Shown: in pieces, positions 2 to 23,102 of the stretch
Position numbering within the stretch: the first letter of the stretch is position 1
Layout of the letters: the number at the start of each line of letters is the position of its first letter
DNA from: a virus
Strand: one strand, 5' to 3'
DNA length: 27,033 bases
Virus record (IMG/VR): IMGVR_UViG_3300017697_003622
Location: 1-27,033 of that record
Notes under the pieces: model-generated
The model's input: only the letters and a program-made list of their open reading frames with translations
Told to the model about the DNA's origin: nothing
Databases searched by the model: none
Program-made: the position numbers and the translations under genes

Positions 2-520
2 AGTGCCGCACAGAAACTGTTCAGCAGAGACTCACACACAGTTGTGTACTCGAACAGCCTGGGTGCAATCCAGTTCGACAACTTGGTAAAAGTTGACGGT
101 TCAACTGGTAAATCAGGTGTTGATGTGTACGAAACTGCGGCTTCTATGGACTTGGGCGACAAACTTAACATCGGTGTTGCATACACAGATGACAAAGTGA
201 ACGCAGTAGAGTACATGGGTGCGGGTTTAACATTCGACCTTTCTGATGCTACAACAATCGGTTACAACCACACAATCAAAGAAGTGGAGTCTACTAAAGT
301 GGAAACCACTGCTAATGAAGTAGTTGCTTCACACCTAATGGGTGAGACAACTGTCTCAGTTGGTTATGGTGAGATCGAAGACGGTAACAAATACACTACA
401 GTTGGTGCTGAAAAGAAATTCGGCGACAACTTCAGCATGTACGGTGCTTTCCAACAAACGGACGTTGTTTCGGGCGTGGACACACAAGACATGGCGGCTG
501 GAATCAAGTTTACATTCTAG
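2..520 (+). CDS. Porin-like outer-membrane beta-barrel protein, C-terminal part (5' truncated by window)
   Basis: The reading frame is open to the left edge, so only about 172 C-terminal residues are visible. They consist of short alternating polar/hydrophobic strands separated by Gly/Asn/Asp turns (GVAYTDDK, TTIGYNHTIK, TTVSVGYGEIED, FSMYGAFQQT), as in Gram-negative porins. The chain ends AAGIKFTF with a terminal Phe, the classical signal read by the Bam complex for insertion into the outer membrane. An internal GTG at 44 is unlikely to be the true start because coding pattern continues upstream. In a phage context this could be a host-derived porin that remodels outer-membrane permeability or receptor display; that role is inference. 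The alternative is a beta-rich virion protein that happens to end in Phe. The gene is convergent with the minus-strand operon to its right. Confidence 0.7.
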   Translation, partial: SAAQKLFSRDSHTVVYSNSLGAIQFDNLVKVDGSTGKSGVDVYETAASMDLGDKLNIGVAYTDDKVNAVEYMGAGLTFDLSDATTIGYNHTIKEVESTKVETTANEVVASHLMGETTVSVGYGEIEDGNKYTTVGAEKKFGDNFSMYGAFQQTDVVSGVDTQDMAAGIKFTF

Positions 521-624: not shown

Positions 625-1326
625 TTACGCCTTCTTGGTAATTGCCCCACGCAACTTTTCTACATCTGTTGGGAAGTATATCTCTTTGAATCTATCATAG
701 ATCCATTGATCTCTGATGAATATGCCTTGACTTCTATTACGCTGTCCGGTGCTGTCTTTTTTAATTTTTTTAATACGTACAGTGATATCTGATCTATATT
801 CGAACCTGTCTATTGCTTTGGCCAGATCTCCACTCCATTGATCCACGCACCAATGCCAGAACATAGGTCCCCAAAAGTATCCAAGTGCTTGTCTCCACTG
901 TTTAGTGACAACCGGAGTAACATTTTCGTTTAGTCTACTTTCACCTCTACCACAGTACATCGACATACAAAATATTCCGTCTGGATATTTTTGTTTAGTC
1001 TCATTAAACTTTTGATCCCACCCTTGTGTTTCAAAAACAACTTCATCACCGGCCAGCATATAGTAGTCTGCATCAAATGAATCACAAATTTGTTCCCAAC
1101 TTAAAACTGTGTTTTGGTCCGGCCCAACTTTCCACTGCACACTATCGCCGTGAGCCTGCCCTAAATGTTTCAATGTATCAATATAATTTTGTAGTTCCGG
1201 ATCATCGTCGTTTAAATAATATCTGATCACAACATTGTTTGGTTTACGTGCAGTAGATAATGCTGACGAAACTAGTTGCCTCAGGAACTGTGGTCTGCCT
1301 CTAGATGGAATAGCAATACAAATCAT
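625..1326 (-). CDS. GT-A fold glycosyltransferase-like protein (GT2-like), copy 1
   Basis: The 233-aa protein starts with a hydrophobic strand and PSRGRP (residues 7-12), as in GT2-type nucleotide-sugar transferases. It then has YLNDDDP near residue 37 and a metal-site-like acidic motif GDE at 93-95 after a hydrophobic strand. An FWHWCVD motif lies near 156-162. The order and wording of these motifs match the gene at 24104-24817 (PSRGRP, YLNEDDE, GDD, FWHWHVD), so the two are paralogs. The likely role is sugar transfer in the cytoplasm; donor and acceptor cannot be read. It is the last gene of the leftward operon and overlaps the nucleoside phosphorylase gene by 4 nt (ATGA). The DxD motif is only approximated by GDE, so catalytic competence is probable but not certain. 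Confidence 0.7.
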   Translation of the reverse strand: MICIAIPSRGRPQFLRQLVSSALSTARKPNNVVIRYYLNDDDPELQNYIDTLKHLGQAHGDSVQWKVGPDQNTVLSWEQICDSFDADYYMLAGDEVVFETQGWDQKFNETKQKYPDGIFCMSMYCGRGESRLNENVTPVVTKQWRQALGYFWGPMFWHWCVDQWSGDLAKAIDRFEYRSDITVRIKKIKKDSTGQRNRSQGIFIRDQWIYDRFKEIYFPTDVEKLRGAITKKA

Positions 1327-2009
1327 ATTTTTAACACCGCCTCAATCATTTGAGAGAAGCCTGTTTCTCTTTCTTTTGGAGTCATGTTTTTATCTGTGTG
1401 TTCAAAATGATCAGACACTGTGTTTACTGACAGTGCTTTCCTATTAAATTGTGCCGCTAGTAGATACAAAATATATGTCTCCATCTCTACTGCTAATGTA
1501 CCATGTGCTTGTAGTTCTCTCCACCAATGTTCGTTTGGTTGATAGAAATAATCATTAGATACTATGCTTCCAACGTGCGCCATGGGACAATGTGTCAAGA
1601 AGTTAGATAGTAATTTGTGATCAACACTAGGACTAATTTGATAATGATCGACTGCTTGTTTGCCCATTGCACTGTCCGTACTTGCTGTTGTGGCCGCAAC
1701 TATATCTCCTACTTGAACGTGTTTGGCTATTCCTCCACAACTGCCTACTCTTATGATTGTTTGTACATTGTAGACTTTAAAAAGTTCTGTGATGTAAATT
1801 GCGTTGCTTGGCATTCCCATGCCGCCCGCTTGTACAGATATTTGTTTCCCATTGTATGTGCCTGTGTAACCCAAACAGTTTCTTACTCCGTTAACCTGTT
1901 GTGGATTATCAAAATAAGTTTCAGCAATCCATTTTGCTCTTAAAGGATCACCTGGTAATAAAACTGTCTCAGCATAGTCACCTGGCTTTGCCTCAATGTG
2001 TGGCGTCAT
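1323..2009 (-). CDS. deoD: Purine nucleoside phosphorylase, DeoD type
   Basis: The 228-aa protein is close to the length of bacterial hexameric PNP (about 239 aa). DeoD enzymes split purine (deoxy)nucleosides with phosphate into base and (deoxy)ribose-1-phosphate. Active-site residues known from the E. coli enzyme are all present: His4 in TPHI, Gly20 and Arg24 in LPGDPLRAK, Arg43, Arg87 in RVGSCG, the EMET ribose-binding motif at 175-178, the catalytic Asp of TVSDH (Asp200), and the downstream Arg of KERE (Arg214). It looks fully functional. It lies between a HAD phosphatase gene and a glycosyltransferase gene, overlapping both. Together with a 5'-nucleotidase-like HAD enzyme it could recycle host purines for phage DNA synthesis (inference). 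Confidence 0.93.
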   Translation of the reverse strand: MTPHIEAKPGDYAETVLLPGDPLRAKWIAETYFDNPQQVNGVRNCLGYTGTYNGKQISVQAGGMGMPSNAIYITELFKVYNVQTIIRVGSCGGIAKHVQVGDIVAATTASTDSAMGKQAVDHYQISPSVDHKLLSNFLTHCPMAHVGSIVSNDYFYQPNEHWWRELQAHGTLAVEMETYILYLLAAQFNRKALSVNTVSDHFEHTDKNMTPKERETGFSQMIEAVLKI

Positions 2010-2556
2010 ATATTTCCTTCCAAGAACTTATACGCCTGCCTTTGTATTCTCTGTTGTATGGCCAGTCCATTACATAAGTCTTCAGTCCCATGTCGTCTCC
2101 GTCCTTCGCATAATCAACTCTATCCTCTATCCACATCAGGTTGCTGTCTTTGTATTGTTCCAACACACCTTTTTTAGATTCTGTGAACTCTCCTGAGCAG
2201 TAGATATTATCAAATACGTCACCAAAAAGATGTTGTAAGTTTATCTTACGTAATCTATGTGCGTATTTGTCCTTGCCTATCATTGTTATAACATCGAATC
2301 GCCAACCTTCTCTTGCTAGTTTAGTAACATACTCGACACTGTCTTTGTAGGCAGGTATAAAACCTAACGCTCCTGTTTGATTGAAAAGATTTATTTGGCC
2401 AAACGCTTCTTCTTCATCTATGCCATATCTTTTTGCCTGTGAGAAATAATGATCGGTGTTGGGCAGTCGAAAGTAACCTTGCTCTCTCATCCATACATCA
2501 AAAGCAAATGCCCAGTCTAATAATACACCATCACAATCAGTTATTATTTTCTTCAT
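1993..2556 (-). CDS. HAD-superfamily phosphatase / 5'-nucleotidase-like protein, copy 1
   Basis: The 187-aa protein carries the HAD catalytic motif I DCDGVLLDW, with nucleophile Asp7 and acid/base Asp9. Motif II is ITMIG (Thr), a motif III Lys sits in SKKGVL, and motif IV is WIEDRVDYAKD. Length and a small helical cap after motif I resemble NT5C-type deoxynucleotidases and other small phage HAD enzymes. It is a paralog of the gene at 25474-26103: both share the WxED motif, a PYN(R/Q) motif and a C-terminal S(S/N)WK(E/D)I. The start overlaps the nucleotidyltransferase 3' end by 20 nt, so they are co-translated. Substrate is unknown. Its neighbour PNP suggests a nucleoside monophosphate, while the neighbouring sugar nucleotidyltransferase suggests a sugar phosphate. 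Confidence 0.8.
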   Translation of the reverse strand: MKKIITDCDGVLLDWAFAFDVWMREQGYFRLPNTDHYFSQAKRYGIDEEEAFGQINLFNQTGALGFIPAYKDSVEYVTKLAREGWRFDVITMIGKDKYAHRLRKINLQHLFGDVFDNIYCSGEFTESKKGVLEQYKDSNLMWIEDRVDYAKDGDDMGLKTYVMDWPYNREYKGRRISSWKEIYDATH

Positions 2557-3274
2557 TTAACAGCATCCTTCTTATTTCTTTCCATGTACCCAGATCCCTG
2601 TAATCCTGTACGGGTATTCCCTTTGATTGGTATATTGGTGTGTTTTTTATTTCTTCGTTGTCTACTTTTTGTTTCAGAGTTGACTTCTCCATGAATGCAA
2701 TACATTGATTGAACGTTCTTCTTCTGAATGCAAAAGCACACCAGAAAGCGTTGAATCTCTCTAAATCTGTTTGTGGTTTATCTTCGTACGCAGTGATTAA
2801 ATCGTTTTGATCAACAGTCAATGCACCTTTTGTTTTTAAAATTTCAGGATTGTTTTCTTTCTTGTACATGAACGTAAATCCTGTTTCGGTCAAAGATGAA
2901 TTAGTCAAGTCGTACAAATCTGAACTGGGAGCCAATGTCATTATTGTGTCAGGCAATAATACCAGATTGTGTTCACCAAAAAGATGGCTTGCACTTTTTA
3001 TTGCACCTGTATACTCGTGTTCATTTGGATTTTGATATGTAAATGTTATGTTGTATCTTTCTTTGTACTTTGCTAGATATGATAATAGTTCTGGTTTATC
3101 CTCATTGACTACTACAACAAACTCCACATTTTTTCTTCCGTAGTCTCGGAAAAAGTTGAAAGAATGATCTATCAAGGCCTCTTCGTTATTGAGTCTTAGT
3201 ATTTCTTTTGGATATGGTAAGTTTAACCTAGTACCCTTACCGGCCGCCGGTAATATTACTGTAAGGTTGCTCAT
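2537..3274 (-). CDS. Sugar-1-phosphate nucleotidyltransferase (RmlA/GlmU-type NTP transferase)
   Basis: The 245-aa protein opens with the nucleotidyltransferase signature PAAGKGTRL (9-17), followed by PYPKE with the catalytic Lys at 23. A hydrophobic strand ending LLPDT is where the family binds Mg2+. Near the C-terminus comes DLGTW, resembling the sugar-binding D(I/L)GTW of this family. The family couples a sugar-1-phosphate to an NTP to make the NDP-sugar that glycosyltransferases use. There is no left-handed beta-helix acyltransferase domain as in GlmU, so it is the bare catalytic domain. It is downstream of helicase with a 1-nt overlap. It could feed the glycosyltransferases of the window; the sugar is not readable. 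A MobA- or CTP-dependent relative is less likely. Confidence 0.83.
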   Translation of the reverse strand: MSNLTVILPAAGKGTRLNLPYPKEILRLNNEEALIDHSFNFFRDYGRKNVEFVVVVNEDKPELLSYLAKYKERYNITFTYQNPNEHEYTGAIKSASHLFGEHNLVLLPDTIMTLAPSSDLYDLTNSSLTETGFTFMYKKENNPEILKTKGALTVDQNDLITAYEDKPQTDLERFNAFWCAFAFRRRTFNQCIAFMEKSTLKQKVDNEEIKNTPIYQSKGIPVQDYRDLGTWKEIRRMLLNEENNN

Positions 3275-4749
3275 TATTGTTCTTCATCTGAGTGTAATTC
3301 ATTAAGCAACTGTCTCAGTTTACCACCCTCAACTGTGGCCTTTACTTTGGTACCCATATTGTCTCCTTTACGCGGATCAGGAACTTCCGATCTTGCATCA
3401 TCTGTTTTATCACTACCGGTTACTTTAGATGTTTGTTTCAGCGAGTCGTATATTTTATTCTTGCCTTGTTGATTGTAGCTCTGTGATTCGTCTTCGTCCA
3501 GGCTTCTAATTCTTAGACTATCAACATCAAATTCTAGATCAACTTTCTGTCCAACACCACTAGATGATCTAGTCTTCATGAACTGTATCTGATATCTACC
3601 ACGCTCTTTCATTGCTCTCGATGTGAATATACCTATCACATTGTCTGCTGTCTGTATCTTAGATAGTCCGCCTGAGATATGGCTGTGATCAAATTCTATC
3701 TCCTCCACACTAGCCCTATTCAACTGTGATGCTGTTGCCAACACACACTGTTTCTCAACAACCAAGTTTCTAAGTTCCTCTGAAACATATTTGTCTTTGA
3801 TAAACAAGTCTGCTGGTGATATCCTTTTACTCTTTGGCATCATGAGATCCAAGTAGTCAATCAGTATGCAGTCTATTTTTTTCTTGTTCTTAAGTTCAAG
3901 TTCTTTGAGATATGTTCTTACATCTAGCACATTACTACCACTTGGCAAGTATTTGATCTGCAAGTTACCTGACTTCTTCTTCAACATTTTGACTTTCATT
4001 TCTACATTATCTATTTCAGGAAATACTTTCCTTGTTGGAATGTTTGTCATCATGGCATCCAGTCTCATGGCAGTAAGTTGTTCACTCAATTCAAAAGATA
4101 TGTAACAAACATTTAATCCGGCCTGTGCCCAATTGACTGCAAGATTCTGCAAGAACAAACTTTTACCTGCACCCGATCCTCCAGCAAAGATGTTTAGTTC
4201 CCCTCGGTTGAACCCTCCGAACAGTTTCTTGTCTAGGTTGGCCCATCCTGTGCTGATCTGTCCGTTGTTGTCCTTGAGTGCCTCTAGTCTACCTTTCGGG
4301 TCTTCAAAGTAATCTGTACCTAGATCTCTTGTGAGTCCAACTTGCACTGCTTCCTTGACCATGTCCTCAACAGGACCATAGTCCCCTTTTTCTAATAGAT
4401 CAGCAGATGATAGTATTGCTTGTTCAAGTGCTTTATGTCTACAAAATGTTTCAAACTCATCTAGCAACCAGTTGAAGTGGCTCGGGTCTAGGTCCTTAGC
4501 CGTCTTTAATTTTATATCGTGTGATGCATTGACTATTTCGACTTCCGGCATGACCTTGTACTCGTCCATGTAGTCCTTGACGAACTTGGCAATAGGTTGC
4601 AGTTTACGATCAAACGAGGCGGGATTGAATATGTTCTGTGCTCTAGCAAATGATTCGGCATCGGCCAGTAACATCTCTATGTACAGTTTCTGCACATCAA
4701 ACGAATAGTTCTTAGCCTGGTGTTGTTCGTTGTTATTATAATCAGCCAT
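3274..4749 (-). CDS. 41: Replicative DNA helicase, T4 gp41 / DnaB type
   Basis: The 491-aa protein is near T4 gp41 in length (475 aa). The N-terminal 150 residues are a helical DnaB-like domain. The RecA-fold ATPase follows: Walker A GGSGAGKS (190-197), catalytic Glu220 in ISFE, Walker B CILIDYLDL (294-302), and the Gln-containing motif ATASQLNR (338-345). An unusual Lys/Ser/Asp-rich tail ends the chain. The enzyme unwinds the fork 5'->3' as a hexamer and recruits primase. The gene overlaps the primase gene by 8 nt, the same 61-41 pairing as in T4-like phages but with primase upstream. Identification is secure. Confidence 0.95.
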   Translation of the reverse strand: MADYNNNEQHQAKNYSFDVQKLYIEMLLADAESFARAQNIFNPASFDRKLQPIAKFVKDYMDEYKVMPEVEIVNASHDIKLKTAKDLDPSHFNWLLDEFETFCRHKALEQAILSSADLLEKGDYGPVEDMVKEAVQVGLTRDLGTDYFEDPKGRLEALKDNNGQISTGWANLDKKLFGGFNRGELNIFAGGSGAGKSLFLQNLAVNWAQAGLNVCYISFELSEQLTAMRLDAMMTNIPTRKVFPEIDNVEMKVKMLKKKSGNLQIKYLPSGSNVLDVRTYLKELELKNKKKIDCILIDYLDLMMPKSKRISPADLFIKDKYVSEELRNLVVEKQCVLATASQLNRASVEEIEFDHSHISGGLSKIQTADNVIGIFTSRAMKERGRYQIQFMKTRSSSGVGQKVDLEFDVDSLRIRSLDEDESQSYNQQGKNKIYDSLKQTSKVTGSDKTDDARSEVPDPRKGDNMGTKVKATVEGGKLRQLLNELHSDEEQ

Positions 4750-6979: not shown

Positions 6980-7140
6980 TCTTTAGTACGTGATGTACTA
7001 TTAATTCCACAAACTCTTTCAACATATTTGGTCAAAGGATTATTTGCTTGATAAGAATCAAGTTCTGATGTCAATGATGAAGTAGTGTTGGATTTCTTAC
7101 GTTTTTTAGAGATTATTTTTTTACGTTTCTGATGGTGCAT
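6976..7140 (-). CDS. Small basic protein, 54 aa, uncertain
   Basis: The ORF between the DnaE-like gene and the convergent plus-strand gene would encode 54 residues from the ATG at 7140. A GTG at 7158 in frame would add 6. The N-terminal third is very basic (HHQKRKKIISKKRKK); the remainder is a plausible folded segment ending NPLTKYVERVCGIN and a Ser/Thr/Lys tail. It overlaps the upstream stop by 20 nt and the convergent stop by 4 nt, as do accepted genes here. Without it the gap would be about 140 nt, long for this genome. No Shine-Dalgarno sequence is visible. If real, a small nucleic-acid-binding protein is the obvious guess. The gene could also be spurious. Confidence 0.45.
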   Translation of the reverse strand: MHHQKRKKIISKKRKKSNTTSSLTSELDSYQANNPLTKYVERVCGINSTSRTKD

Positions 7141-7711
7141 CAAAACTATATTTAGCACTGCTTATCAGATTCATCTGCACTACTATGGCCTGTGCATATG
7201 CCACAGCATGTGATTTCTTGAAGAAGTAACTGCCGTCTGTGGGTTTGGTCCATACCTCTTTTATTATGTCAGTCCAGTCCTTGTACATCAGTCCTCGTTT
7301 AGCAGGACGGATGATTGCTAGTACAGCCGCAAGTTGTTCTATGGTACGTGGTTCCAACTTGGACACTATGTTGAAATGGCCATTCAGGTGGAAAAGATTT
7401 TCCACTATCTTTGGATCTTTCAACATGTCCCAGTCAGGTTCCTGTATCATCAGTTCTACTAGTTCTTGTTCTGATTTAACATCTTTGTATATGTTTACAT
7501 TTAGGCAATCTATTTTAAAGTATCCTCTGTCCTCTGCATTCTTGTAATCTAGTGAAGCATGTCCTGTTACAGGATGTTCGGGAACAGCGTGGAAGTAGAC
7601 TCCTGTTTTGTGTTTTTCGCTTTTGCCATCTTTGATCATGGAAGCAGGTGTGTGCTTGAAAAGTTTTAGTGTGTTGTCTCTGTCAAAGAAGTCTATGTCT
7701 ACATCAGGCAT
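7121..7711 (-). CDS. Miniature DnaE (DNA polymerase III alpha)-like protein
   Basis: The 196-aa protein begins exactly at the C-family polymerase active-site motif: PDVDIDF (2-8). Next, GYFKIDCL (63-70) aligns with the family's KFDFLGL segment that holds the third catalytic Asp (here Asp68). NLFHLNG (105-111) and LAAVLAIIRPAKRG (127-140) match the DnaE VFQLES and ALxALxRPGP region. FFKKSHAVAYA (163-173) matches the FNKSHAxAYA motif. Order is preserved but the protein is about one sixth the length of DnaE. It lacks the PHP, thumb, beta-binding and OB regions. All three active-site Asp positions appear kept, so a residual nucleotidyl-transfer, binding or regulatory role is possible. Function unknown. 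It shares a 1-nt stop/start overlap with its upstream neighbour. Confidence 0.75.
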   Translation of the reverse strand: MPDVDIDFFDRDNTLKLFKHTPASMIKDGKSEKHKTGVYFHAVPEHPVTGHASLDYKNAEDRGYFKIDCLNVNIYKDVKSEQELVELMIQEPDWDMLKDPKIVENLFHLNGHFNIVSKLEPRTIEQLAAVLAIIRPAKRGLMYKDWTDIIKEVWTKPTDGSYFFKKSHAVAYAQAIVVQMNLISSAKYSFDAPSET

Positions 7712-12614: not shown

Positions 12615-13097
12615 ATGAAAAAAACAAGTAAAAAAACAGTTACAGCCCGGAAACAATTGAAGATCAGATTGGAAAATACTCTGACTAAAAGAAAAAATAT
12701 CCGAGGATTTAGGCCCTCACAATCTTTGATGGCGTCTTGGTTCAAGCATCTCAACCAAGGATTGTTTGAAAACAAGTTGCCTACTGTGCCGTTACATCTT
12801 ATAAGGATGACAGACGACTGGGGCAGATGCTGGGCACACTGGGATAACAGGAAATGCAGGAAAGGAACATACGACCAAAGTATTATTCCTTATGACAAAA
12901 CAGAAGTGACCTTTGCCATAGAATTACACACAAGGTATCCAACGTTCAAAGATTTTATTGATACCTTAGCACACGAGATGGTACATCTATACCAGATGAC
13001 CGTATTAAAAGATCCTTACAGCAACCATAACAAAAACTTTTATTCGTTCAGAAATAAGTTTAAAAGTGCCGGCTTGGATCTATCAAGAACTGGCTAA
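12615..13097 (+). CDS. SprT-like zinc metalloprotease
   Basis: The 160-aa protein has the gluzincin motif HEMVH (about 124-128, in LAHEMVHLYQ) in a helix, preceded by a SprT-like N-terminal region (SWFKHLNQGLFENKLP) and followed by a His/Asn stretch (NHNKNFYSFRNKF) that could give the third ligand. The domain is shared with SprT and Spartan, which in eukaryotes cleaves DNA-protein crosslinks; the phage role is unknown. The N-terminus is very basic (KKTSKKTVTARKQ), compatible with DNA binding. It is a single-gene plus-strand unit between two minus-strand operons, sharing a 64-nt divergent promoter region on its left and overlapping the convergent gene by 15 nt on its right. Confidence 0.85.
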   Translation: MKKTSKKTVTARKQLKIRLENTLTKRKNIRGFRPSQSLMASWFKHLNQGLFENKLPTVPLHLIRMTDDWGRCWAHWDNRKCRKGTYDQSIIPYDKTEVTFAIELHTRYPTFKDFIDTLAHEMVHLYQMTVLKDPYSNHNKNFYSFRNKFKSAGLDLSRTG

Positions 13098-13832
13098 CAC
13101 AGTATCTTCAAATTCTTTGTAAGTTATGATTTTAGAATTCCCATGATCAGTGCCTGTCTGCAGGTAGTTCATATACTCCGGAGGATCGTCATGTACTACG
13201 GTGTAGTTCACATAAGGCCTCATTTTCAGCATGTCTCGGAAATGTTTTAACCACCCCTCGAATATCTTGTCATCATTACGTTCACCATAGTTTTCCGTGC
13301 CTTGGTATATGTTATTCAGTTCTCCCTTGCCGTATTCTCTAAAGTCATAACCTATCAGGTATATGTTTTTGTGTCCGTGTACACCTGCTGTCCAGAACGC
13401 CGCGTTGCCTGATATCCAGTGTGGGTTATTGGGTATTAAGTTTATCATGCCCTTGCTCTGTTTCCTGTTCACTTCCAGCGCCGGCCCATAGTGTACGGTC
13501 TTCAACCCAACTGTGTCCTCCACCATCTTCATTGTCATCTTGGTATCTACGGAGAATATGAAGTCGGGCATAAAGTCTCTGTACAATGCATTACAACCAT
13601 ATGTCTGTCCTGTCGCTTTAAGTTTGTTGAGATTAAAATCTTTACGGGAAGGACCATTACCTATGCAGTAAGCATTACCTCGAGGAACTGCTTTGACCGT
13701 ATCCTCGAAAAATTTCATATCTCGTATGCGTTCGCCTTTCCTGATAGTCATGTTTATGCAAACTTCTTCTCCCTCATAGGGTTTCCATTTGATGGGTTCA
13801 ATTTCCTTCTTGCCGATGTTAATAGTTTGCAT
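13083..13832 (-). CDS. GT42 / DUF115-like putative glycosyltransferase
   Basis: The 249-aa protein has AYCIGNGPSRKDF (54-66), matching the GNGPS nucleotide-binding motif of GT42 sialyltransferases and of the DUF115 domain in flagellin glycosylation (Maf) proteins. CNALYRD and FIFSVD follow. Then come SGNAAFWTAGVHGHKNIYLIGYDF-type elements (about 141-164), equivalent to the GT42 segment that ends in a GxDF motif. This points to a CMP- or NDP-sugar transferase fold, but donor specificity cannot be assigned. It is the last gene of the leftward half of the glycan island, with a 1-nt stop/start overlap with the GT-B gene. A GGAGGAG sequence lies about 11 nt upstream of its ATG. Confidence 0.62.
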   Translation of the reverse strand: MQTINIGKKEIEPIKWKPYEGEEVCINMTIRKGERIRDMKFFEDTVKAVPRGNAYCIGNGPSRKDFNLNKLKATGQTYGCNALYRDFMPDFIFSVDTKMTMKMVEDTVGLKTVHYGPALEVNRKQSKGMINLIPNNPHWISGNAAFWTAGVHGHKNIYLIGYDFREYGKGELNNIYQGTENYGERNDDKIFEGWLKHFRDMLKMRPYVNYTVVHDDPPEYMNYLQTGTDHGNSKIITYKEFEDTVLASS

Positions 13833-14701
13833 TATAGATATTTCTCCTCCAGTCTCTTTTTAATTCTCTTCCATGGCAGTCCCTGCTCTATCTCGTCTTC
13901 AAACCATTCTGTGTATGCCAGTTTGTCTGCCCAGGTCAGTCTATTGGGCATGGCCGGTGTGTTTATATCTGTTAATTTTATGTTACCCACATCGTGGCAT
14001 AGGCTGGATTCAGATACGAACACAGGTATGCCCTTGATCACTGCCTCCATGGCCGGGTTGCTGGAATGATTTATTACTGCCCAGGTCCTCTCAAGTGTTG
14101 CTTTGAAATCTGTGTCATCGTATGTCCTGAAATCTCTTTTGGGCAATCTTACTTTAACATTTTTAAATTTGTCCTCTACAAATGATATCGTGTTACGAGG
14201 ATGTGGCCTTACTAAAATAGGTCTTGTAGTGTATTTTCGTATTTCCGTTATCTGTTCTTCTATCCACTGTGACATCCTTGGAAGTCCTTTCCACTGTTCG
14301 GATGCATCGTGCTGTCCGCAAATCACTATAAGGTCACCGGTGGGATTCCATGGTCGTAGCTCGTGTTTGAACAACGGCCACCGTTTATTGTCAAACCCCT
14401 GATTGGCAAAATCTGCATCTCTATTAATCCCATTGATTCCTATCTTGAAACTGAGGTTCCTACGTAGTCCTCCTACTTCCAGAACAATTACAGGCTTACC
14501 TTGACTCCTATATCTATCCCAGACACTTTTGTAATTCTGCATCCGACCCTTCCAAAGTACACTCCATATTACTGCTACGTCTCCGTTGGTCTCTTTATTA
14601 ATGATTACGTTATCTCCAGTCTTTTGGATTGATTCTATAAATTTTTTAAAGATCGGTTTACTGTTTTGTGGGCCATGCTCTGGCCATGCTTCTATCCTCA
14701 T
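13832..14701 (-). CDS. Capsule-type GT-B glycosyltransferase-like protein, paralog A1
   Basis: The 289-aa protein has the marks of capsule-synthesis (KpsS/KpsC-like) or CDP-glycerol-transferase-like GT-B proteins: VRPHPRN (RPHP 165-168), and NHSSNPAMEAVIKGIPVFV beginning at 211, the nucleotide-sugar-binding Ser/Glu region. The end has LTWADKLAYTEWFEDEIEQG followed by KRIKKRLEEKYL. Motifs, spacing and C-terminal wording match the gene at 18074-19057 closely (RPHP; HNSTASVDSCVRGIPTFV; TQWVHDIGYKLWSTDEIRNG), and more distantly those at 19047 and 21648. It probably transfers a sugar or polyol phosphate in the cytoplasm. It overlaps GT-A by 4 nt upstream. Confidence 0.72.
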   Translation of the reverse strand: MRIEAWPEHGPQNSKPIFKKFIESIQKTGDNVIINKETNGDVAVIWSVLWKGRMQNYKSVWDRYRSQGKPVIVLEVGGLRRNLSFKIGINGINRDADFANQGFDNKRWPLFKHELRPWNPTGDLIVICGQHDASEQWKGLPRMSQWIEEQITEIRKYTTRPILVRPHPRNTISFVEDKFKNVKVRLPKRDFRTYDDTDFKATLERTWAVINHSSNPAMEAVIKGIPVFVSESSLCHDVGNIKLTDINTPAMPNRLTWADKLAYTEWFEDEIEQGLPWKRIKKRLEEKYL

Positions 14702-15579
14702 AATGACGGTGGTACTTTCTTCCAGTAATCTACTGTAGGCTCTTTACGCAAATCATTTCGTGCTGACGTTCCGATTTTCTTACGTTTGCCTTTCATGTGG
14801 TCCATGTAATCACCAAGTTCACTATTAACAAACACATGGTGTCCTTTTACACCTTTCCAGTAACCTATATCGTTTACTTGTATGTTTTTTTCTTTTCTGT
14901 ATATTTTTGACAAATGCCAAAACACATACGAGTCGTGCCATTCCAACAATTTAAACACCTCGTCTGTAACATAAAGTTTTTCCCAGTCATTTACAAAGTT
15001 TTGTATCTCAGGATGTTTCATATTGTATCCAACGAATCCACATTCTGGATATTTGCCACCGTCGTTGAGGTTTGGATTTTCTCGACCTAGGTATGTCAAC
15101 ATTGTGTCTTGTGGTAGTAATTTTTCAAAGAAGTCCATAGGGGCGGGCCTAAACGAAAATGTGTCTCCGTCAATCCACACCACATAGTCATACTCTTTTG
15201 AATTACGCACAGCATTCACAACACAGAATACTTTGTTAGCAAATCTCACAGCGGCCCAGAGGAATGATCCTTTATTTTTGTCGTTGCCACCTTTGATTTG
15301 TAGTTCCGCCGGACGTCTAACGCCACCTTCGATTTCTTCTAACTCTCCGTTTGCAACAGGATCGTTTTTGTGTTTGTTCTTAAATTTGAATAATTCTGGC
15401 TCTGCAGTATTAAGGTCTATCCATTGTATTCTGTCATACTTGCATTCAGGTTTAGGTTCTTCTGCGTACACAACTATATCAACTTCTTTTGGAAATTGTT
15501 CAGCCATGGACTCGATACCTTTTTTGCCGTACTGTTCCCAACAGCCAGGCTTGTATGATGTGATAACTTTAATTTTCAT
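14698..15579 (-). CDS. GT-A glycosyltransferase with DGD metal site
   Basis: The 293-aa protein has an N-terminal nucleotide-binding half and a hydrophobic strand ending in WIDGDTF: DxD at Asp137-Asp139, the metal and nucleotide-sugar site of GT-A enzymes. A following ECGFVGYNMKHP and WHDSYVFWHL are typical of retaining GT8-like or related phage glycosyltransferases, where a conserved Gly-x-x-Gly strand and an Asp line the acceptor site. A Gly/Arg-rich segment (about 85-95) interrupts the domain. Donor unknown. It sits between the sulfotransferase (11-nt overlap) and GT-B paralog A1 (4-nt overlap), so sugar transfer and sulfation are likely coordinated. Confidence 0.78.
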   Translation of the reverse strand: MKIKVITSYKPGCWEQYGKKGIESMAEQFPKEVDIVVYAEEPKPECKYDRIQWIDLNTAEPELFKFKNKHKNDPVANGELEEIEGGVRRPAELQIKGGNDKNKGSFLWAAVRFANKVFCVVNAVRNSKEYDYVVWIDGDTFSFRPAPMDFFEKLLPQDTMLTYLGRENPNLNDGGKYPECGFVGYNMKHPEIQNFVNDWEKLYVTDEVFKLLEWHDSYVFWHLSKIYRKEKNIQVNDIGYWKGVKGHHVFVNSELGDYMDHMKGKRKKIGTSARNDLRKEPTVDYWKKVPPSL

Positions 15580-16351
15580 TTATTCTCTTATTTAAATCTT
15601 GCAGTCCTGGCCAGTTCAATAAAACATCTTGTTGTTCTTTTGGTAAATCAGCGATGTAGTTTGATCCGCCCCTTCTATAAAATTTTAATTCGTCTGGTGC
15701 TTCTTTGTTATTTTTTTCTTTCATTTTTTCCCAAGTAGTTTGTTCTTTTGCATATGCGAATGAATCTTTATCGCAATTTTTGAACACAAATGTTAAAAGT
15801 TTTTCCCAAGCACTATCTTCTTTTTTTAGGTCTTCATACTTGATAAACAACTTTCGACCTTGGTGTTGAGCCATGTGATCCAGTTGTAAGTTCATGAAGT
15901 TTATAATGATATCTAGTCCCCATTGTTTGTTTTTTGCAAAATCTATTATGTCTGTGTGTTGTGGACAAGTAAACTCTTTGTATGGTATGCTTTGCAAATA
16001 AGGCCAATAACTGAACAACACATCAAGCGGATCTCTCACAAGATATACAATGTTTTGTAATTTCATTTCAGGTTCGAAATAAAATTGTTTGCTGTCCTGC
16101 ATATTAAAATATTCGTCCCATGGTATGTGTCCGGTCATGCTCATGAAGTCATGTCTAAATAATATTTTAGGTATGCCAGGCATTCCAGGCCGAGGCCTAT
16201 CCACCCATTTGCTAAACGCAACGTTCCATTGTCTAGCAATATAGTGTGCAAAAAAATGTTTCATCCATGTACGACCGCAACGAGGAAAACTTAATATCAA
16301 GGTAGGACAGTTGTTATATTGGTTACGTAAAACGTTTATTCTATGATGCAT
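15569..16351 (-). CDS. PAPS-dependent sulfotransferase
   Basis: The 260-aa protein has the 5'-phosphosulfate loop SFPRCGRTWMK (21-31; consensus YPKSGTTW). A likely catalytic His67 lies in FRHDFM. The 3'-phosphate motif has Arg106 and Ser114 (VRDPLDVLFSYW) at the canonical spacing, and YRRGGSNY is near the C-terminus, like the RKG motif that contacts PAPS. The family moves sulfate from PAPS to hydroxyl or amino groups of sugars and small molecules. Within a glycosyltransferase island, a sulfated glycan product is likely. No PAPS-synthesising gene is visible, so PAPS would come from the host or genes outside the window. The start overlaps AsnB-like by 11 nt. Confidence 0.88.
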   Translation of the reverse strand: MHHRINVLRNQYNNCPTLILSFPRCGRTWMKHFFAHYIARQWNVAFSKWVDRPRPGMPGIPKILFRHDFMSMTGHIPWDEYFNMQDSKQFYFEPEMKLQNIVYLVRDPLDVLFSYWPYLQSIPYKEFTCPQHTDIIDFAKNKQWGLDIIINFMNLQLDHMAQHQGRKLFIKYEDLKKEDSAWEKLLTFVFKNCDKDSFAYAKEQTTWEKMKEKNNKEAPDELKFYRRGGSNYIADLPKEQQDVLLNWPGLQDLNKRINEN

Positions 16352-18074
16352 CTGTTACCTTGTATGTTTCTTTCCAATGTTTCAATATCAAATCTGGTAT
16401 AAGCATTTTAGCAGATTTTTGGCTAGAAGTCACTGTTTTCAATTTTTCGTGTCCTAACTCTTTGGTATAAAAGTCCTCAAGGTCTTTGTCCATTTTATTT
16501 GTAAGCCATAAGCCTACAGGAACAGTCCAGCCTGTTTTTGGTTTATGAATGATGTCATTTGGTAATATTTCGTTGTATGCTGATCTTATCATAATTTTAG
16601 TTTCTGATTGATTCAGTTTGTATTTTGTATGAATATTCAAACAGTATTGCATAAACGTTTTACTTGCCAATGGAAAACGTCCTTCCATGCTGTATGCCAT
16701 TCCATATGTATCGTTTCTGCTAAAAAATTCTGCAGGACATTGTGTGACACAGTCTAAAGCCATATATGAGCCAACAGGATCATCTGGATTCCACAACTTG
16801 TCTGAATAGCAACGCTCTAGTTCGTCTAGTAGTTGTTCGTCTGCAACAATATCTTTTGCAAAACTCTTAGGTCTTTTCAAACGTTGTAACCATAAAGTGA
16901 GTAACTCTCTCCAAGTTTTAGGAAGTACACCATAAAACATTTTTTGATATTTTGGGTATCCGCCTAATAATTCATCACCCATATCGCCTGCCATTGTAAC
17001 AACTATATCTTTGTCTGCCATAAATTTATTTGTATGACAATACATTGCCATACTAGGATTAAAGTTAACTTGTTCCATGTAATAAATGGATTGATCCCAT
17101 GCTGTCATATATTCTCTTGGTGTAATTACTACCTCGTGGTGTGTGTATCCTTCTCTGTCTGCTAAAACTTTTGCCGCATTGGCATCGCTGTTGTAGTCTT
17201 CATCTGCTGTTACTTCTGGGTGTATACGATTTGTAAATGTATTGATGTCTTGAACCTGGCCAAGTTCATATGCTACAACACTCGAGTCTAAACCTCCACT
17301 TAAGAATACACCTATTTTTCTTTGTCCAATAGCACATCGTTTTACAGTGTCGCTTATTTGTTTTCTAAATTCTTTTGGCTTAAATTTATTATTACTGTTA
17401 GGGATTATATAGATTCTTTTACTATCAATAAATTTTTTATCTTTCAAACAGTATACTAATGTTTCTCCAGGCAGTAGTTGTTTAATACCTGAGAATATAG
17501 AATTGCGTAATGGATTGCATCCTGTTCTACTTTGAAAACTTGCCGCTAGTTTGTCTAACTTTCTTGCACCCGGGACTACATCCAACATGCCTTTAACCTC
17601 AGAACCAAACACAAGACCTCTATCTATCTCAGCATAGTATAACGGTTTTATACCAGCATGATCTCTGCTTATGGTAATCCTGTCCTTGTCGACTTCGTAG
17701 TAGGCAAAGCCATGCATTGAATCTATCTCATCAATAAATGACAGGCCAAATTTGTCTAATCCCCATGCAAGTAGTTCTGTGTCACACCCTGTTGTATCTG
17801 TAAAGTCTTTATACTTTTCTTTTAGTTCGTAATAATTAAATATTTCACCGTTGTACACTAGGTGGTTATACTTGGGAGTTCTCCACGGCTGTCGTGAGTT
17901 TTTTGGTTCTGACATTATACTCAAAAGATTATGTCCTAAGGTAACACCGTTGCCTGACTCTTTGTTTACAATCTCAATTTTTAGGCCTCCATCTGGGCCT
18001 CTGTGTTTACAGAGATGCATGTAATCATTGATAAATTTTTGATCGGCCGCAGTTATACCGTATATGCCACACAT
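16341..18074 (-). CDS. asnB: Asparagine synthetase-like glutamine amidotransferase
   Basis: The 577-aa protein is full length for AsnB. Cys2 is the class II amidotransferase nucleophile. NGEIFN (75-80) and GCDTE (Asp98) are glutaminase-site residues. SGGLDSS (259-265) is the ATP PP-loop of the synthetase domain. One difference stands out: where family members have a HxRLS segment with an Arg holding the glutamine carboxylate, this protein reads HNLLS (48-52), so that Arg appears to be Leu. In glycan clusters AsnB-like enzymes often amidate uronic-acid sugars rather than aspartate. The island context supports that, but plain asparagine synthesis is not excluded. It overlaps GT-B A2 by 1 nt. 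Confidence 0.88.
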   Translation of the reverse strand: MCGIYGITAADQKFINDYMHLCKHRGPDGGLKIEIVNKESGNGVTLGHNLLSIMSEPKNSRQPWRTPKYNHLVYNGEIFNYYELKEKYKDFTDTTGCDTELLAWGLDKFGLSFIDEIDSMHGFAYYEVDKDRITISRDHAGIKPLYYAEIDRGLVFGSEVKGMLDVVPGARKLDKLAASFQSRTGCNPLRNSIFSGIKQLLPGETLVYCLKDKKFIDSKRIYIIPNSNNKFKPKEFRKQISDTVKRCAIGQRKIGVFLSGGLDSSVVAYELGQVQDINTFTNRIHPEVTADEDYNSDANAAKVLADREGYTHHEVVITPREYMTAWDQSIYYMEQVNFNPSMAMYCHTNKFMADKDIVVTMAGDMGDELLGGYPKYQKMFYGVLPKTWRELLTLWLQRLKRPKSFAKDIVADEQLLDELERCYSDKLWNPDDPVGSYMALDCVTQCPAEFFSRNDTYGMAYSMEGRFPLASKTFMQYCLNIHTKYKLNQSETKIMIRSAYNEILPNDIIHKPKTGWTVPVGLWLTNKMDKDLEDFYTKELGHEKLKTVTSSQKSAKMLIPDLILKHWKETYKVTDAS

Positions 18075-19057
18075 TACAATCCCAACCTTTCTTTGAATCT
18101 TTTGAACACTACACCATTACGTATCTCGTCGGTGCTCCACAGTTTATATCCTATGTCATGAACCCATTGTGTCCTGTCTGGACGGTCGGGTGTTTCTATA
18201 CTGTTTAGATTTTTATTTGCTACTGGCCAACAAAGTGCAAGATCTGAGGTAACAAAGGTAGGGATTCCACGAACGCAGGAATCGACACTGGCAGTAGAAT
18301 TGTGAGTAACAAAAGCATGGCAATTACTTAATGCTTCTTGGAAGTTGAATCTATAGTACTTTTTCTCATCTCCCACAAAGTGTGCAGGTCCTTCTAACAG
18401 TTCACAGTCCTCTGGAAACTCTTCTTTTCTGTTTATCATTTGTGCCATATGGTTTGGGTGTGGACGTATTAAAAATTTACGATCAGTGATAGGTCTTAAT
18501 TTTTCATACACACCATGAAACCAATCGATCGGATCAAGTTCGTCCATGCTCCAGTTGTCTTTAGGCTGTAATCCAAACAGTATAGGATCGTTTTGATCCG
18601 ACTTACGCCATGGCTCATACTTTATGTTCCATAAGTCTTTCATCATATCCCAACGATCATTTGGACTGTTGTCGCTTAAAAAGTTTCCGTTGTTCATGGG
18701 AGAATATAAACTTACTCGCCAATGATGTTTAGGGTGTGTGATTGTATTGCCAAAACTAGACAGTATGCCACCGTCGAATGTAATAATGTAAATGCCTTTT
18801 TTCTTTGCACGTTCCACAAGGTCTCGCCTACGTCCTTTAGTATGGTGTGGTTGGTTCTTCCCTCCGTAGCCAAACATACATCCTATCGGTGCGGTTGGTT
18901 CCATCTCGTCCTGTCGCCATTCACCAGTTAATTTCTCATTGACCATTATTGGTTCATCGCCACATGCTTTTATGCCTTCGGCCATGTGTTGTAGTAGTTG
19001 AAAACTTGCTCCTTGTTTCCGGTCTTTCACAGTCCTTCTAAATATTTCAACTTTCAT
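18074..19057 (-). CDS. Capsule-type GT-B glycosyltransferase-like protein, paralog A2
   Basis: The 327-aa protein has RPHP (198-201) and THNSTASVDSCVRGIPTF beginning at 251, then a C-terminal block of WVHDIGYKLWSTDEIRNG and FKRFKERLGL. This block matches paralog A1 (13832-14701) position by position. The N-terminal third includes Gly-rich FGYGGKNQP and FDGGILSSFG loops, as expected for a GT-B first domain. The family includes KpsS/KpsC-like capsule enzymes. It is sandwiched between AsnB-like (1-nt overlap) and paralog B1 (11-nt overlap). Expected role: sugar transfer during assembly of the island's glycan. Substrate is not readable. Confidence 0.72.
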   Translation of the reverse strand: MKVEIFRRTVKDRKQGASFQLLQHMAEGIKACGDEPIMVNEKLTGEWRQDEMEPTAPIGCMFGYGGKNQPHHTKGRRRDLVERAKKKGIYIITFDGGILSSFGNTITHPKHHWRVSLYSPMNNGNFLSDNSPNDRWDMMKDLWNIKYEPWRKSDQNDPILFGLQPKDNWSMDELDPIDWFHGVYEKLRPITDRKFLIRPHPNHMAQMINRKEEFPEDCELLEGPAHFVGDEKKYYRFNFQEALSNCHAFVTHNSTASVDSCVRGIPTFVTSDLALCWPVANKNLNSIETPDRPDRTQWVHDIGYKLWSTDEIRNGVVFKRFKERLGL

Positions 19058-19862
19058 CTAATATCCTTAATGCTGTACCATCACTCATTTCATTTGATGT
19101 AAATTGACCATATGCTAAACTATAAAACAACGGTCTAGGGTCTTCGTATACAGGTTGTTCAATACGAGCTAGACTCTTACCTGCAATAGGGAACGCACAA
19201 TTATTACTATCAGCAAATACAGGTACACCACTTGCTAATGCTTTAATTGTAATAGAACTGTTGTTGGTTACAACAGCGTGTAGGTCATTCCAGTCGATTT
19301 TTTCTTTTGGTGTCTTGTTACTGTTTTCTCCTGTGTGGATTTTTCCATCCGCACCTATTTGTGCTTCTGGGTTATAGGGTTTCTCTCTTACAACTATTTC
19401 TCTATCAGTATATTTCCTTAATTCAGTTAGTGTGTTTTCTAGCCAGTTCTCACACTTAAAGAAAGTACTAATAGAATTTGTTGGTGGACAAACTAATATT
19501 TTCCTACCGTTCTTGTGATAAGGCTTTATGTCATACGGAAACGTTGCTTTGAATCTATCATCCGGACGTTCGTCAATAAAGTTTTTGACATGGTCATTTT
19601 TAACTATCCTTAAGAAATAAGGTTGTTGCCTGCTGATGCCCCAATACGGTCTATCCATGTAGTAAAAATCTATATTATTTTTTTGGCAATATTCATACAC
19701 TAAATTTGTTCCTCTTAATATTCCAAAGAGCCAGATTTTTGTTGCATCTGTTTTTGCTAATACCTGTTCGTAAGGTAGTATCTGTGATCCCGGAAGTCCT
19801 TCATGTGCAAACTGTATGTACTTTTCAGTCACTTGTCTAGAAGTTTTACTTAGGTATATCAT
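19047..19862 (-). CDS. GT-B glycosyltransferase-like protein, paralog B1
   Basis: This shorter protein (271 aa) is related to A1 and A2 but of another subfamily. It has FYYMDRPYWG (66-75) in the N-terminal half, VREKPYN (158-164) where A-type members carry RPHP, and TNNSSITIKALASGVPVFA beginning at 199. It ends in FYSLAYGQFTSNEMSDGTA, the same layout as the gene at 21648-22460 (WFTDTPYFG; RHKPRG; TSCSIAAVEAICEGIPVFC; LYSLAYQQFTPEEIENGTA). Loss of RPHP in both may mean a different acceptor or donor. Divergent members of the same GT-B fold are the simplest reading. It is coupled to GT61 by a 1-nt overlap. Confidence 0.7.
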   Translation of the reverse strand: MIYLSKTSRQVTEKYIQFAHEGLPGSQILPYEQVLAKTDATKIWLFGILRGTNLVYEYCQKNNIDFYYMDRPYWGISRQQPYFLRIVKNDHVKNFIDERPDDRFKATFPYDIKPYHKNGRKILVCPPTNSISTFFKCENWLENTLTELRKYTDREIVVREKPYNPEAQIGADGKIHTGENSNKTPKEKIDWNDLHAVVTNNSSITIKALASGVPVFADSNNCAFPIAGKSLARIEQPVYEDPRPLFYSLAYGQFTSNEMSDGTALRILDES

Positions 19863-20944
19863 TAGTCTATGTGTTTCATCAAGTCTGCAATATCAATTTT
19901 AAAATTAATAAGATCTGTCAGTCTCTTTATGCCTTTTGGTTTTTTATCTTTTTCTAGAGGAATAGGTACAGTATCTGTGAGATATAATTTATGTTCCAGA
20001 CCTAAGTGATGAGATAACACAGGATAAACTTTCTTATGTATCATTTTAGGATCTTGTATTTCTATCACTTTTGTTCCCGGGGTGCACCATAATAAATTTA
20101 CTAGGCCTGCACCGTGTGCCGCAACAATGTGTGTGGCCTCAGCAAACGTTTTCATTTGTTCTCGTATGGTCATCTTTGCTAGGTCTACAGTCTCCCATCC
20201 TTTCAATGCTAACAATAATTCGTCTGAGTTTGTGATCCTTCTCGTTTTCGCGCCTGGACGTAGCACAACTATTTTTCTATGAGGCTTCACGTCTTTCAAC
20301 TCCGGACGACCTTTGAAATGTCTTAACCATGGAGCAAGGTGCGGAGTAATCACTCCGTCTTTTGAATTACTTGCACTTGGAACTAATAGATGTTTAAATT
20401 GCCATGTTTCGTTTTTTGGCATCACAAGAACTTTAACTTCGGGAAAGAGTTCTTTGATACATTTTTCTAAATATTTACTCTCATTGGCCAACACATAACA
20501 ATACTTTGTAAAGTCTGTAGACCATCTCTTTTCTATTAATCTAAATTTTGATATTACATCAATCCATATATGCCATGGATTGCCTACACTGTCCTCATCT
20601 ATAGGTAACCATACATAGTGATATTTCTCATGGAAGTGATTGCTGACCCGTGGTAGATCAACATCTACATTGTCACCCCAATCACTCCACAGACCGTGTG
20701 CCTTCTGAGGTTTAAATTTACTTTTATGAGTTAGTCCCCAGATGTAACTGGTAATTAGTTTGTTGTGCATGGTCGCAAGTAGTGGACAACTATGAACTCT
20801 ACAATCATGAAATTCAGCAACAAATGTTGGTAAACTTGTGAAATGTGCATCAACATCTTTGTGATACGGTACTGTGTAATCGTAACTGGTGTCCACAGTT
20901 TCCCATTTATCCAGGAAGTATTTGATTGAATCTATGTTCTTCAT
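19862..20944 (-). CDS. GT61 (DUF563)-type glycosyltransferase
   Basis: The 360-aa protein carries the GT61 hallmark in its C-terminal half: VLRPGAKTRRITNSDELL (227-244), then THIVAAHGAGLVNLLWCTPG (271-290) with the conserved AHGAGL(V/T)N, and KVIEI. In other organisms GT61 members transfer xylose or other sugars in N-glycan and polysaccharide synthesis, and bacterial members occur in capsule clusters. The N-terminal half is Trp/His-rich and unassigned. It is the first gene of the leftward half of the island, starting 39 nt from the divergent SGNH gene. A weak minus-strand promoter (TTGGTA-16-TATAGT) precedes it. Confidence 0.85.
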   Translation of the reverse strand: MKNIDSIKYFLDKWETVDTSYDYTVPYHKDVDAHFTSLPTFVAEFHDCRVHSCPLLATMHNKLITSYIWGLTHKSKFKPQKAHGLWSDWGDNVDVDLPRVSNHFHEKYHYVWLPIDEDSVGNPWHIWIDVISKFRLIEKRWSTDFTKYCYVLANESKYLEKCIKELFPEVKVLVMPKNETWQFKHLLVPSASNSKDGVITPHLAPWLRHFKGRPELKDVKPHRKIVVLRPGAKTRRITNSDELLLALKGWETVDLAKMTIREQMKTFAEATHIVAAHGAGLVNLLWCTPGTKVIEIQDPKMIHKKVYPVLSHHLGLEHKLYLTDTVPIPLEKDKKPKGIKRLTDLINFKIDIADLMKHID

Positions 20945-20945
20945 G

Positions 20946-20974
20946 TTGCTATTTGCCTATAATTATACTATAAT
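20946..20974 (+). promoter_or_regulatory. Candidate divergent promoter region driving both halves of the glycan island
   Basis: In the 39-nt gap 20945-20983, the plus strand reads TTGCTA, 17 nt, TATAAT (20969-20974), aimed at the SGNH gene ATG at 20984 with almost no leader. The minus strand has a weaker TTGGTA-16-TATAGT and a TATAAT at 20967-20962 toward the GT61 gene. The opposing promoters overlap, so the two arms may compete or be co-regulated. Confidence 0.5.
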
Positions 20975-20983
20975 TATTGAGCT

Positions 20984-23083: not shown

Positions 23084-23102
23084 CTGAAATTAAATACTCT
23101 GA

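Follow-up and report, generated by a model that had tools for sequence, protein, structure and literature searches.

One of the described systems closest to the locus analysed here makes the aminoribose of nucleoside antibiotics of the muraymycin and A-90289 types: in this LipP/LipM/LipN pathway, phosphorolysis of a nucleoside gives a ribose-1-phosphate, which is converted to an NDP-pentose and transferred by a glycosyltransferase (GT; PMC4902027). Among phages, TH1_063 of Shewanella phage Thanatos forms UDP-xylose from xylose-1-phosphate and UTP, and deoxyribose-1-phosphate has been suggested by its authors as a possible substrate (PMC12838424). The ribofuranose of bacterial polysaccharides is derived from PRPP and involves a gPRT and a HAD-family phosphoribose phosphatase (PMC11127046). 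In the GmhB/HddC and AcbJ/AcbR pairs, a HAD phosphatase acts first and the resulting 1-phosphate is then nucleotidylated; the acarbose study also names a 'purine nucleoside phosphorylase', as a reagent of its assay and not as an enzyme of the pathway (PMC9200736).

Organization of the locus

The window (the whole stretch of viral DNA analysed, 27,033 nt) contains a trio of overlapping genes with the following features.

625–1326, minus strand: glycosyltransferase (phrog_14945, 7e-23), ATGA overlap with the PNP gene; accessory
1323–2009, minus strand: DeoD-type purine nucleoside phosphorylase (PNP), 228 aa (NF004489, TIGR00107 and PDB matches)
Close 5' of the PNP start, near the HAD/PNP overlap, minus strand: AAGGA-type ribosome site, read by eye
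1993–2009, minus strand: HAD/PNP overlap, 17 nt (17–26 nt is commonest among relatives)
1993–2556, minus strand: HAD-family phosphatase with a deoxyribonucleotidase-like fold, 187 aa (phrog_420, 8.8e-28, and structural model)
2537–2556, minus strand: NTase/HAD overlap, 20 nt (the commonest overlap among relatives, 38/65)
2537–3274, minus strand: putative sugar-1-phosphate nucleotidylyltransferase (NTase), 245 aa, first gene of the trio (PF00483, 3.2e-7, and AlphaFold model)
3274–4749, minus strand: DnaB-type helicase (PF03796, 6.6e-22), TAATG overlap with the NTase gene; context, outside the unit

The three reading frames and both overlaps within the trio agree with the original prediction of a translationally coupled set, and dnaB and a primase gene (profile matches) precede the trio in the window. 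As in the LipP/LipM/LipN system, a phosphorylase, a nucleotidyltransferase and a glycosyltransferase are encoded together (625–3274), with the GT family varying between phages. That system, however, starts from 5'-amino-5'-deoxyuridine and releases uracil, whereas the phosphorylase here is a purine-type DeoD; the passage on it names no nucleotidase partner, whereas the trio includes a HAD phosphatase; and the pathway belongs to an actinomycete and builds a small molecule, whereas the trio lies in a phage glycan island (PMC4902027). TH1_060 and TH1_063 of Thanatos (and ORF052_053c of RB69) are likewise phage genes for an activated pentose, but the TH1_058–065 region contains neither a PNP nor a HAD phosphatase of the trio type, and its target is cytosine in DNA. 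TH1_060 and TH1_063 were rejected as homologues of the trio NTase, TH1_063 being not detectably related and TH1_060 marginal (~10 bits). In PRPP-dependent ribofuranosylation, glycans likewise receive ribose and a HAD phosphatase takes part, but PRPP or a polyprenyl-phosphate sugar serves as donor instead of a nucleotide sugar, and neither a phosphorylase nor a nucleotidyltransferase is involved. The GmhB/HddC and AcbJ/AcbR pairs lack a nucleoside phosphorylase and act on a heptose or cyclitol bisphosphate.

Conservation of the trio

The trio is a conserved cassette, carried by dozens of otherwise differing uncultured phages, mostly aquatic, with flanks that vary between loci. Where the original prediction asked whether these genes rarely occur together in other phages, the opposite was found: HAD and PNP adjoin the NTase in the same order in 63 of the 69 distinct NTase loci whose downstream DNA is long enough, and a search seeded with PNP placed NTase and HAD upstream in 68 of 70 distinct loci. 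In comparison with locus L017, dN of the trio is 0.04–0.08 and dS is saturated, and the three genes are under strong purifying selection; together with the order shared by the 63 loci, this places the arrangement far beyond chance. The pairwise distances of each of the three proteins correlate with those of the other two (r 0.73–0.79; permutations ≤0.17), although shared phage ancestry would also yield such a correlation.

Partial sets comprise the NTase alone (L091, L149 and L150) or NTase plus HAD (L038, L058 and L074), and HAD plus PNP without NTase was found in none of the loci with room for an NTase. DeoD and phosphatases are commonly present in hosts, and genome G001, for instance, carries a DeoD (1.8e-77); the feeding steps (HAD and PNP) would thus be replaceable and the activating step (NTase) would not, and the nested series of NTase, NTase plus HAD and full trio is as expected if host enzymes substitute for the former only. 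Locus L139 has a PNP of the trio clade next to DHFR- and thymidylate-synthase-like genes, and its 109 kb contain no NTase. Locus L143, which encodes a PNP, a divergent NTase and then another gene, was considered as an independent second pairing and rejected, as the NTase relatives in L178 and L179 have no adjoining PNP and it counts as one case.

Purine nucleoside phosphorylase

The PNP matches PF01048 (1e-32), NF004489 (275 bits against a cut-off of 230; 3.9e-82), TIGR00107 (245.6 bits against a cut-off of 232.25; 4.4e-73) and DeoD structures in the PDB (down to 1.7e-83). All 18 positions checked are identical to Salmonella DeoD, which bears out the predicted DeoD-type enzyme with every active-site residue intact, and 53 phage homologues all retain His4, Arg24, Arg43, Met64, Arg87, Met180, Glu181, Asp204 and Arg217, while position 90 is Ser in 49 of them, as in DeoD and the window, and Thr in 4. 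Phosphorolysis of purine nucleosides is inferred from this intact active site. The enzyme agrees with bacterial DeoD in sequence family, in length and in every active-site residue compared; the bacterial enzyme, however, is encoded in a deo operon and not in a phage glycan operon with an NTase and a HAD phosphatase. Matches in the GenBank phage collection (≤47% identical, many of them short unannotated records and some bacterial chromosome contigs) were read as host DNA and left out as cultured-phage relatives.

DeoD reactions are reversible, and the PNP could run in reverse, using (deoxy)ribose-1-phosphate for the synthesis of an unusual nucleoside while NTase and HAD tune the substrate pools. 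This is considered highly improbable, as a base-modifying enzyme is never a constant neighbour and the sugar NTase would be left without a clear role.

Nucleotidyltransferase

The NTase is put among the sugar-1-phosphate nucleotidylyltransferases, as originally predicted, by a PF00483 match above the cut-off (30.6 bits against 21.2), by the fold of its AlphaFold model (pLDDT 90.6) and by its signature motifs. The best Foldseek/VIA matches of the model are UGPase and RmlA (Z 19–21, maximum 21.2, over 210–230 residues). The protein contains the signature G12-x-G14-T-R (GxGTRL), K23 and D109, the latter two conserved in all members of a 57-sequence alignment, where K23 corresponds to the catalytic-type lysine and D109 to the metal-binding aspartate; residues were equated with RmlA positions by motif and not by superposed ligand. 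D165-K166-P167, matching the E/D-K-P motif of the substrate lobe, is conserved in 56 of the 57 sequences, and P9, G12, L17, K23, D109, T110, D227 and G229–W231 are invariant. Sequence matches to known families are weak, the best being of the hexose, IspD and GlmU types with HddC as a weak match, and no characterised close homologue was found in sequence-profile searches.

Among 50,697 GenBank phage records none matched the family, and bacterial members are very rare: three relatives were detected in the GTDB scan, and no further ones around G001 among 296 genomes of the family and 385 of the class.

HAD phosphatase

The HAD protein contains the DxD nucleophile/acid pair (D7 and D9, 53/53 sequences), the Ser/Thr of motif II (T/S91, 53/53), the Lys of motif III (K128, 52/53) and the acidic pair of motif IV (E144, or D, plus D145; 53/53). 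The top fold match of its model (pLDDT 93.7) is the deoxyribonucleotidase-like 3bwv (Z 17.9, 160 residues), and human mdN/cdN align at Z 15.6–16.3 over ~174 of 187 residues (mdN 1mh9/4mwo, Z 16), while the GmhB-type heptose-bisphosphate phosphatase 3l8h is almost level with the deoxyribonucleotidases (Z 16.2, 146 residues). No Pfam (E ≤ 0.01) or NCBIfam family and no nucleotidase model was reached, and because of this the enzyme is named deoxyribonucleotidase-like, after the folds to which its model is nearest, and not assigned as a member of that family. The predicted 5'-nucleotidase-like character is thus retained at the level of the modelled fold, where 5'(3')-deoxyribonucleotidases are nearest, but not at that of a sequence profile.

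The near tie with GmhB raises the alternative that HAD and NTase form a sugar-bisphosphate phosphatase/sugar-1-phosphate nucleotidyltransferase pair of the GmhB/HddC or AcbJ/AcbR type, acting on a heptose, a hexose or another sugar, with PNP separate. The fold neighbours of the NTase are hexose-1-phosphate enzymes, the weak HddC match points the same way, three loci carry NTase and HAD without PNP, and AcbJ/AcbR follows the same logic (PMC9200736). Such a pair nevertheless leaves the close PNP linkage (68/70) unexplained, and deoxyribonucleotidases cover more of the HAD protein than GmhB (174 against 146 residues); the alternative is regarded as rather improbable.

Genomic neighbourhood

The trio lies in a glycan-synthesis neighbourhood, its neighbours across loci including GTs, epimerases, FkbM methyltransferases and DegT aminotransferases. 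The GT that follows PNP had been predicted to use the product, but a GT of the window's family stands directly after PNP in only 11 of 66 loci, so that it is a variable accessory and not a fixed part of the set. Family A9 occupies this place in 29 loci; sub-threshold Pfam GT matches occur in a few of its members, and an assignment as a GT-B enzyme was dropped in favour of 'possibly GT', as neither a PHROG or PDB match nor a profile match to the cluster-41 GT was obtained. Family A10, with no PDB match, precedes the NTase in 33 loci.

In plain purine salvage, HAD and PNP would take NMPs to bases and (deoxy)ribose-1-phosphate for the nucleotide and energy pool, and the NTase would be an unrelated glycan gene sharing the operon by chance. 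Salvage is the textbook role of DeoD and of nucleotidase-like folds, the cassette in the window comes after dnaB and the primase gene, and the PNP of L139 lies near nucleotide-metabolism-like genes (DHFR and thymidylate synthase) without an NTase. Salvage is none the less judged unlikely: the NTase accompanies HAD and PNP in >90% of loci, and where genes of the trio are missing it is the one retained, the opposite of what salvage predicts; the gene upstream of the NTase differs in most relatives and is replication-related in few; and no deo-operon partner (phosphopentomutase, deoxyribose-phosphate aldolase, thymidine phosphorylase or phosphoribosyltransferase) is evident among the neighbour families listed, the contigs being fragments.

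An activated pentose might also serve hypermodification of phage DNA instead of a surface or virion glycan, as cytosine carrying a pentosyl or deoxypentosyl group is known from Thanatos and the RB69-like phages (PMC12838424). No homologue of thymidylate synthase/dCMP hydroxymethylase was found in ten long trio-bearing records (64–144 kb, possibly incomplete), with a positive control search, and the Thanatos sugar genes are non-homologous save for one very weak NTase-domain match; with the glycan-like neighbourhood of the trio, these results make this use very unlikely.

Predicted pathway

The trio may well be a phage cassette making a nucleotide-activated pentose, a reading held with middling confidence. 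HAD would take the 5'-phosphate off a purine (deoxy)ribonucleotide; PNP, given its intact DeoD active site, would split the purine nucleoside into free base and alpha-D-(2-deoxy)ribose-1-phosphate; NTase would couple this sugar-1-phosphate with an NTP, giving NDP-(deoxy)ribose and pyrophosphate; and glycosyltransferases of the phage glycan island would consume the product. The sugar would be ribose or 2-deoxyribose, with a leaning to the latter because the nearest folds of the HAD model are deoxyribonucleotidases. Two features favour this NDP-pentose route, originally proposed from gene order, over plain salvage: the pattern of gene loss and a neighbourhood rich in GTs. The conserved trio agrees with it, although the GT following PNP is not conserved. 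The catalytic residues preserved in all three proteins, the modelled folds of NTase and HAD, the LipP/LipM/LipN and Thanatos precedents and a bacterial relative of the NTase beside a likely protein-glycosylation enzyme also speak for the route. The hexose-type fold neighbours of the NTase, the closeness of GmhB to HAD and the PNP of L139 without NTase speak against it, as does the PRPP origin of known bacterial ribofuranose (PMC11127046).

The proposed 'new way' from nucleosides to glycan donors would be new in its phage setting and in its purine-type, nucleotidase-fed version, but the chemistry would be a variant and not a new kind, because LipP/LipM/LipN already combines phosphorylase, NTase and GT (PMC4902027). 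A link between phage DeoD and NDP-sugars was found in none of the literature searched. If the reading is correct, nucleotide turnover in infection would be linked to glycan building, and (deoxy)ribose would gain a nucleotide-sugar origin besides the PRPP origin known for bacterial polysaccharides; a nucleotide-activated (2-deoxy)ribose is not a known donor of bacterial glycan synthesis. As the cassette recurs in uncultured phages and its NTase family is unmatched in the GenBank phage collection searched, current annotation displays only a 'nucleotide metabolism' PNP and a generic NTase. The trio proteins are small and probably soluble.

More tentatively, and with considerable doubt, infection would involve the recycling of purine (deoxy)nucleotides, perhaps those of degraded host DNA, into NDP-(2-deoxy)ribose for the decoration of a glycan or a virion protein, and the same donor would serve a rare bacterial NTase copy in modifying flagellin. 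The copy in question, in a Rhodobacteraceae MAG, is 57% identical to the NTase and is flanked by a TPR-GT41 protein, likely a protein-glycosylation enzyme, and by flagellin.

Trio locus and its products

The window, a virus record of 27,033 bases, encodes a DnaB-type helicase, a primase, a UvsW-type helicase and polymerase-related genes together with a large glycan island, and on its minus strand five consecutive genes overlap at all four junctions:

3274-4749, minus strand, dnaB, first of the five genes
2537-3274, minus strand, sugar nucleotidyltransferase (NTase), directly after dnaB
1993-2556, minus strand, HAD phosphatase (HAD), directly after NTase
1323-2009, minus strand, DeoD-type purine nucleoside phosphorylase (PNP), directly after HAD
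625-1326, minus strand, glycosyltransferase (GT), directly after PNP

The trio coordinates and protein identifications of the original prediction were borne out. PNP exceeds the curated DeoD cut-offs, matches DeoD structures in the PDB (E down to 1.7e-83) and shares every one of the 18 active-site residues examined with Salmonella DeoD. Without exception, 53 phage homologues keep the catalytic residues Asp204 and Arg217 and almost every residue that binds ribose or phosphate. NTase scores above the PF00483 cut-off, and its AlphaFold model (pLDDT 90.6) aligns over nearly its full length with UDP-glucose pyrophosphorylases and RmlA (Z 19-21); its sugar and nucleotide are not readable from homology, as sequence comparison yields no close characterised relative. 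HAD belongs to phrog_420, a PHROG family common in T4-like phages. Its model (pLDDT 93.7) has 5'(3')-deoxyribonucleotidases as nearest folds, and GmhB scores almost as well over a shorter alignment; no nucleotidase model is reached by sequence, and the enzyme is thus termed deoxyribonucleotidase-like. A second phrog_420 HAD (25474-26103, minus strand) is 33% identical to that of the trio, and its homologue lies directly upstream of the trio in two other loci (L023 and L025).

Elsewhere in the window, a 196-aa protein (7121-7711, minus strand) matches the DNA-polymerase family phrog_11778; a far larger polymerase-like ORF directly precedes NTase in L017, L030 and L032. A 158-aa ORF near the window end (44-520, plus strand), porin-like or a repeat-rich beta-protein, has no match in Pfam or PHROG.

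Conservation of the trio

An initial PNP search gave 15 viral loci, all with the order NTase-HAD-PNP (15/15). In later, larger searches with alignments, loci with identical NTase or PNP were collapsed, leaving 69 NTase-seeded loci whose downstream DNA reaches 1.4 kb or more and 70 PNP-seeded loci whose upstream DNA reaches 1.5 kb or more. The three genes do co-occur elsewhere, as the original prediction had proposed to check: HAD and PNP stand beside NTase in 63/69 loci, and NTase and HAD beside PNP in 68/70, these being proportions among the relatives found on fragmentary records, not a census. The NTase/HAD overlap is 20 nt in 38 of 65 loci and the HAD/PNP overlap 17-26 nt in most, while the genes before NTase and after PNP vary from phage to phage. 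One gene is inserted between NTase and HAD in L117 (3983-6602) and between HAD and PNP in L113 (1605-4720), so strict adjacency is not required. Pairwise distances are correlated among the trio proteins (r 0.73-0.79), which fits joint inheritance but is also expected from shared phage ancestry; dN to the nearest relative is 0.04-0.08, with dS saturated.

Proposed pathway and alternatives

Protein families and gene context point, with about even confidence, to a route from nucleotides to glycans as the most likely role, where HAD would convert (d)NMP to nucleoside, PNP would cleave this to purine and (deoxy)ribose-1-phosphate, NTase would form NDP-(deoxy)ribose and a GT would transfer it to a glycan. 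It is most improbable that PNP runs in the synthetic direction. Phosphorylase-nucleotidyltransferase-glycosyltransferase chemistry is already known: LipP frees uracil to give 5-amino-5-deoxyribose-1-phosphate, and LipM makes the NDP-aminoribose that LipN transfers (PMC4902027). The trio would be a phage form of this chemistry that employs a purine PNP and a nucleotidase-like HAD. A Shewanella phage Thanatos protein converts xylose-1-P to UDP-xylose, with deoxyribose-1-P raised by the authors as a possible substrate (PMC12838424); it has no detectable sequence relationship to the trio NTase. Ribofuranose of bacterial polysaccharides is reported to derive from PRPP via a phosphoribosyltransferase and a HAD phosphatase (PMC11127046). 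No published description of the trio was found in the literature searched.

The exceptions line up as NTase, NTase + HAD and trio. NTase occurs without HAD and PNP in L091 and two bacterial loci (L149 and L150), and NTase + HAD without PNP in L038, L058 and L074, whose entire records (21-25 kb) lack PNP. That HAD and NTase act on another sugar, PNP having a separate job, is rather improbable. Purine salvage with an unrelated NTase, which is unlikely, would predict PNP kept and NTase lost, the reverse of this series. Some support for salvage comes from L139 (8001-10301), where a trio-clade PNP adjoins DHFR- and thymidylate-synthase-like genes and the trio NTase is absent from the 109-kb virus record; PNP of this clade can therefore also sit in a nucleotide-metabolism setting. 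The other PNP locus without the trio NTase, L143, has a divergent one. If PNP and HAD feed NTase, as in the preferred glycan route, hosts bearing DeoD and a phosphatase could replace both, which would leave NTase as the irreplaceable step; one bacterial genome (G001) carries its own DeoD. A donor for DNA modification is a very unlikely product, and a T4-style sugar modification is the less likely destination, as ten long trio records, which may be incomplete, contain no thymidylate synthase or hydroxymethylase homologue.

Glycan context

The large glycan island of the window (13083-25513) also contains DUF6716-like putative GTs and includes:

15569-16351, sulfotransferase
16341-18074, Asn-synthase/amidotransferase
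19862-20944, GT61
22457-23083, FkbM-like methyltransferase
23103-24107, NDP-sugar epimerase
24104-24817, phrog_14945 GT

Neighbour families of the trio across loci include NDP-sugar epimerases, FkbM methyltransferases, DegT aminotransferases, amidotransferases and GTs. The gene directly after PNP (66 cases) belongs to an unassigned family in 29 and to the window's GT family in 11, the rest being other putative GTs or unknowns. This unassigned family directly 3' of PNP (L047:9940-10908 and 28 more loci) has only sub-threshold GT matches; another unassigned family, directly before NTase (L026:7373-8008 and 32 more loci), is well conserved and has no match in the PDB. In L150 (5493-11399; Rhodobacteraceae MAG AG-319-F15), an NTase 57% identical to that of the window, with neither HAD nor PNP beside it, overlaps the end of a TPR-GT41 gene and is followed by a flagellin gene on the opposite strand. 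GT41 is the O-GlcNAc-transferase family, and L150 thus places a bacterial member of the NTase family beside a likely protein-glycosylation enzyme.
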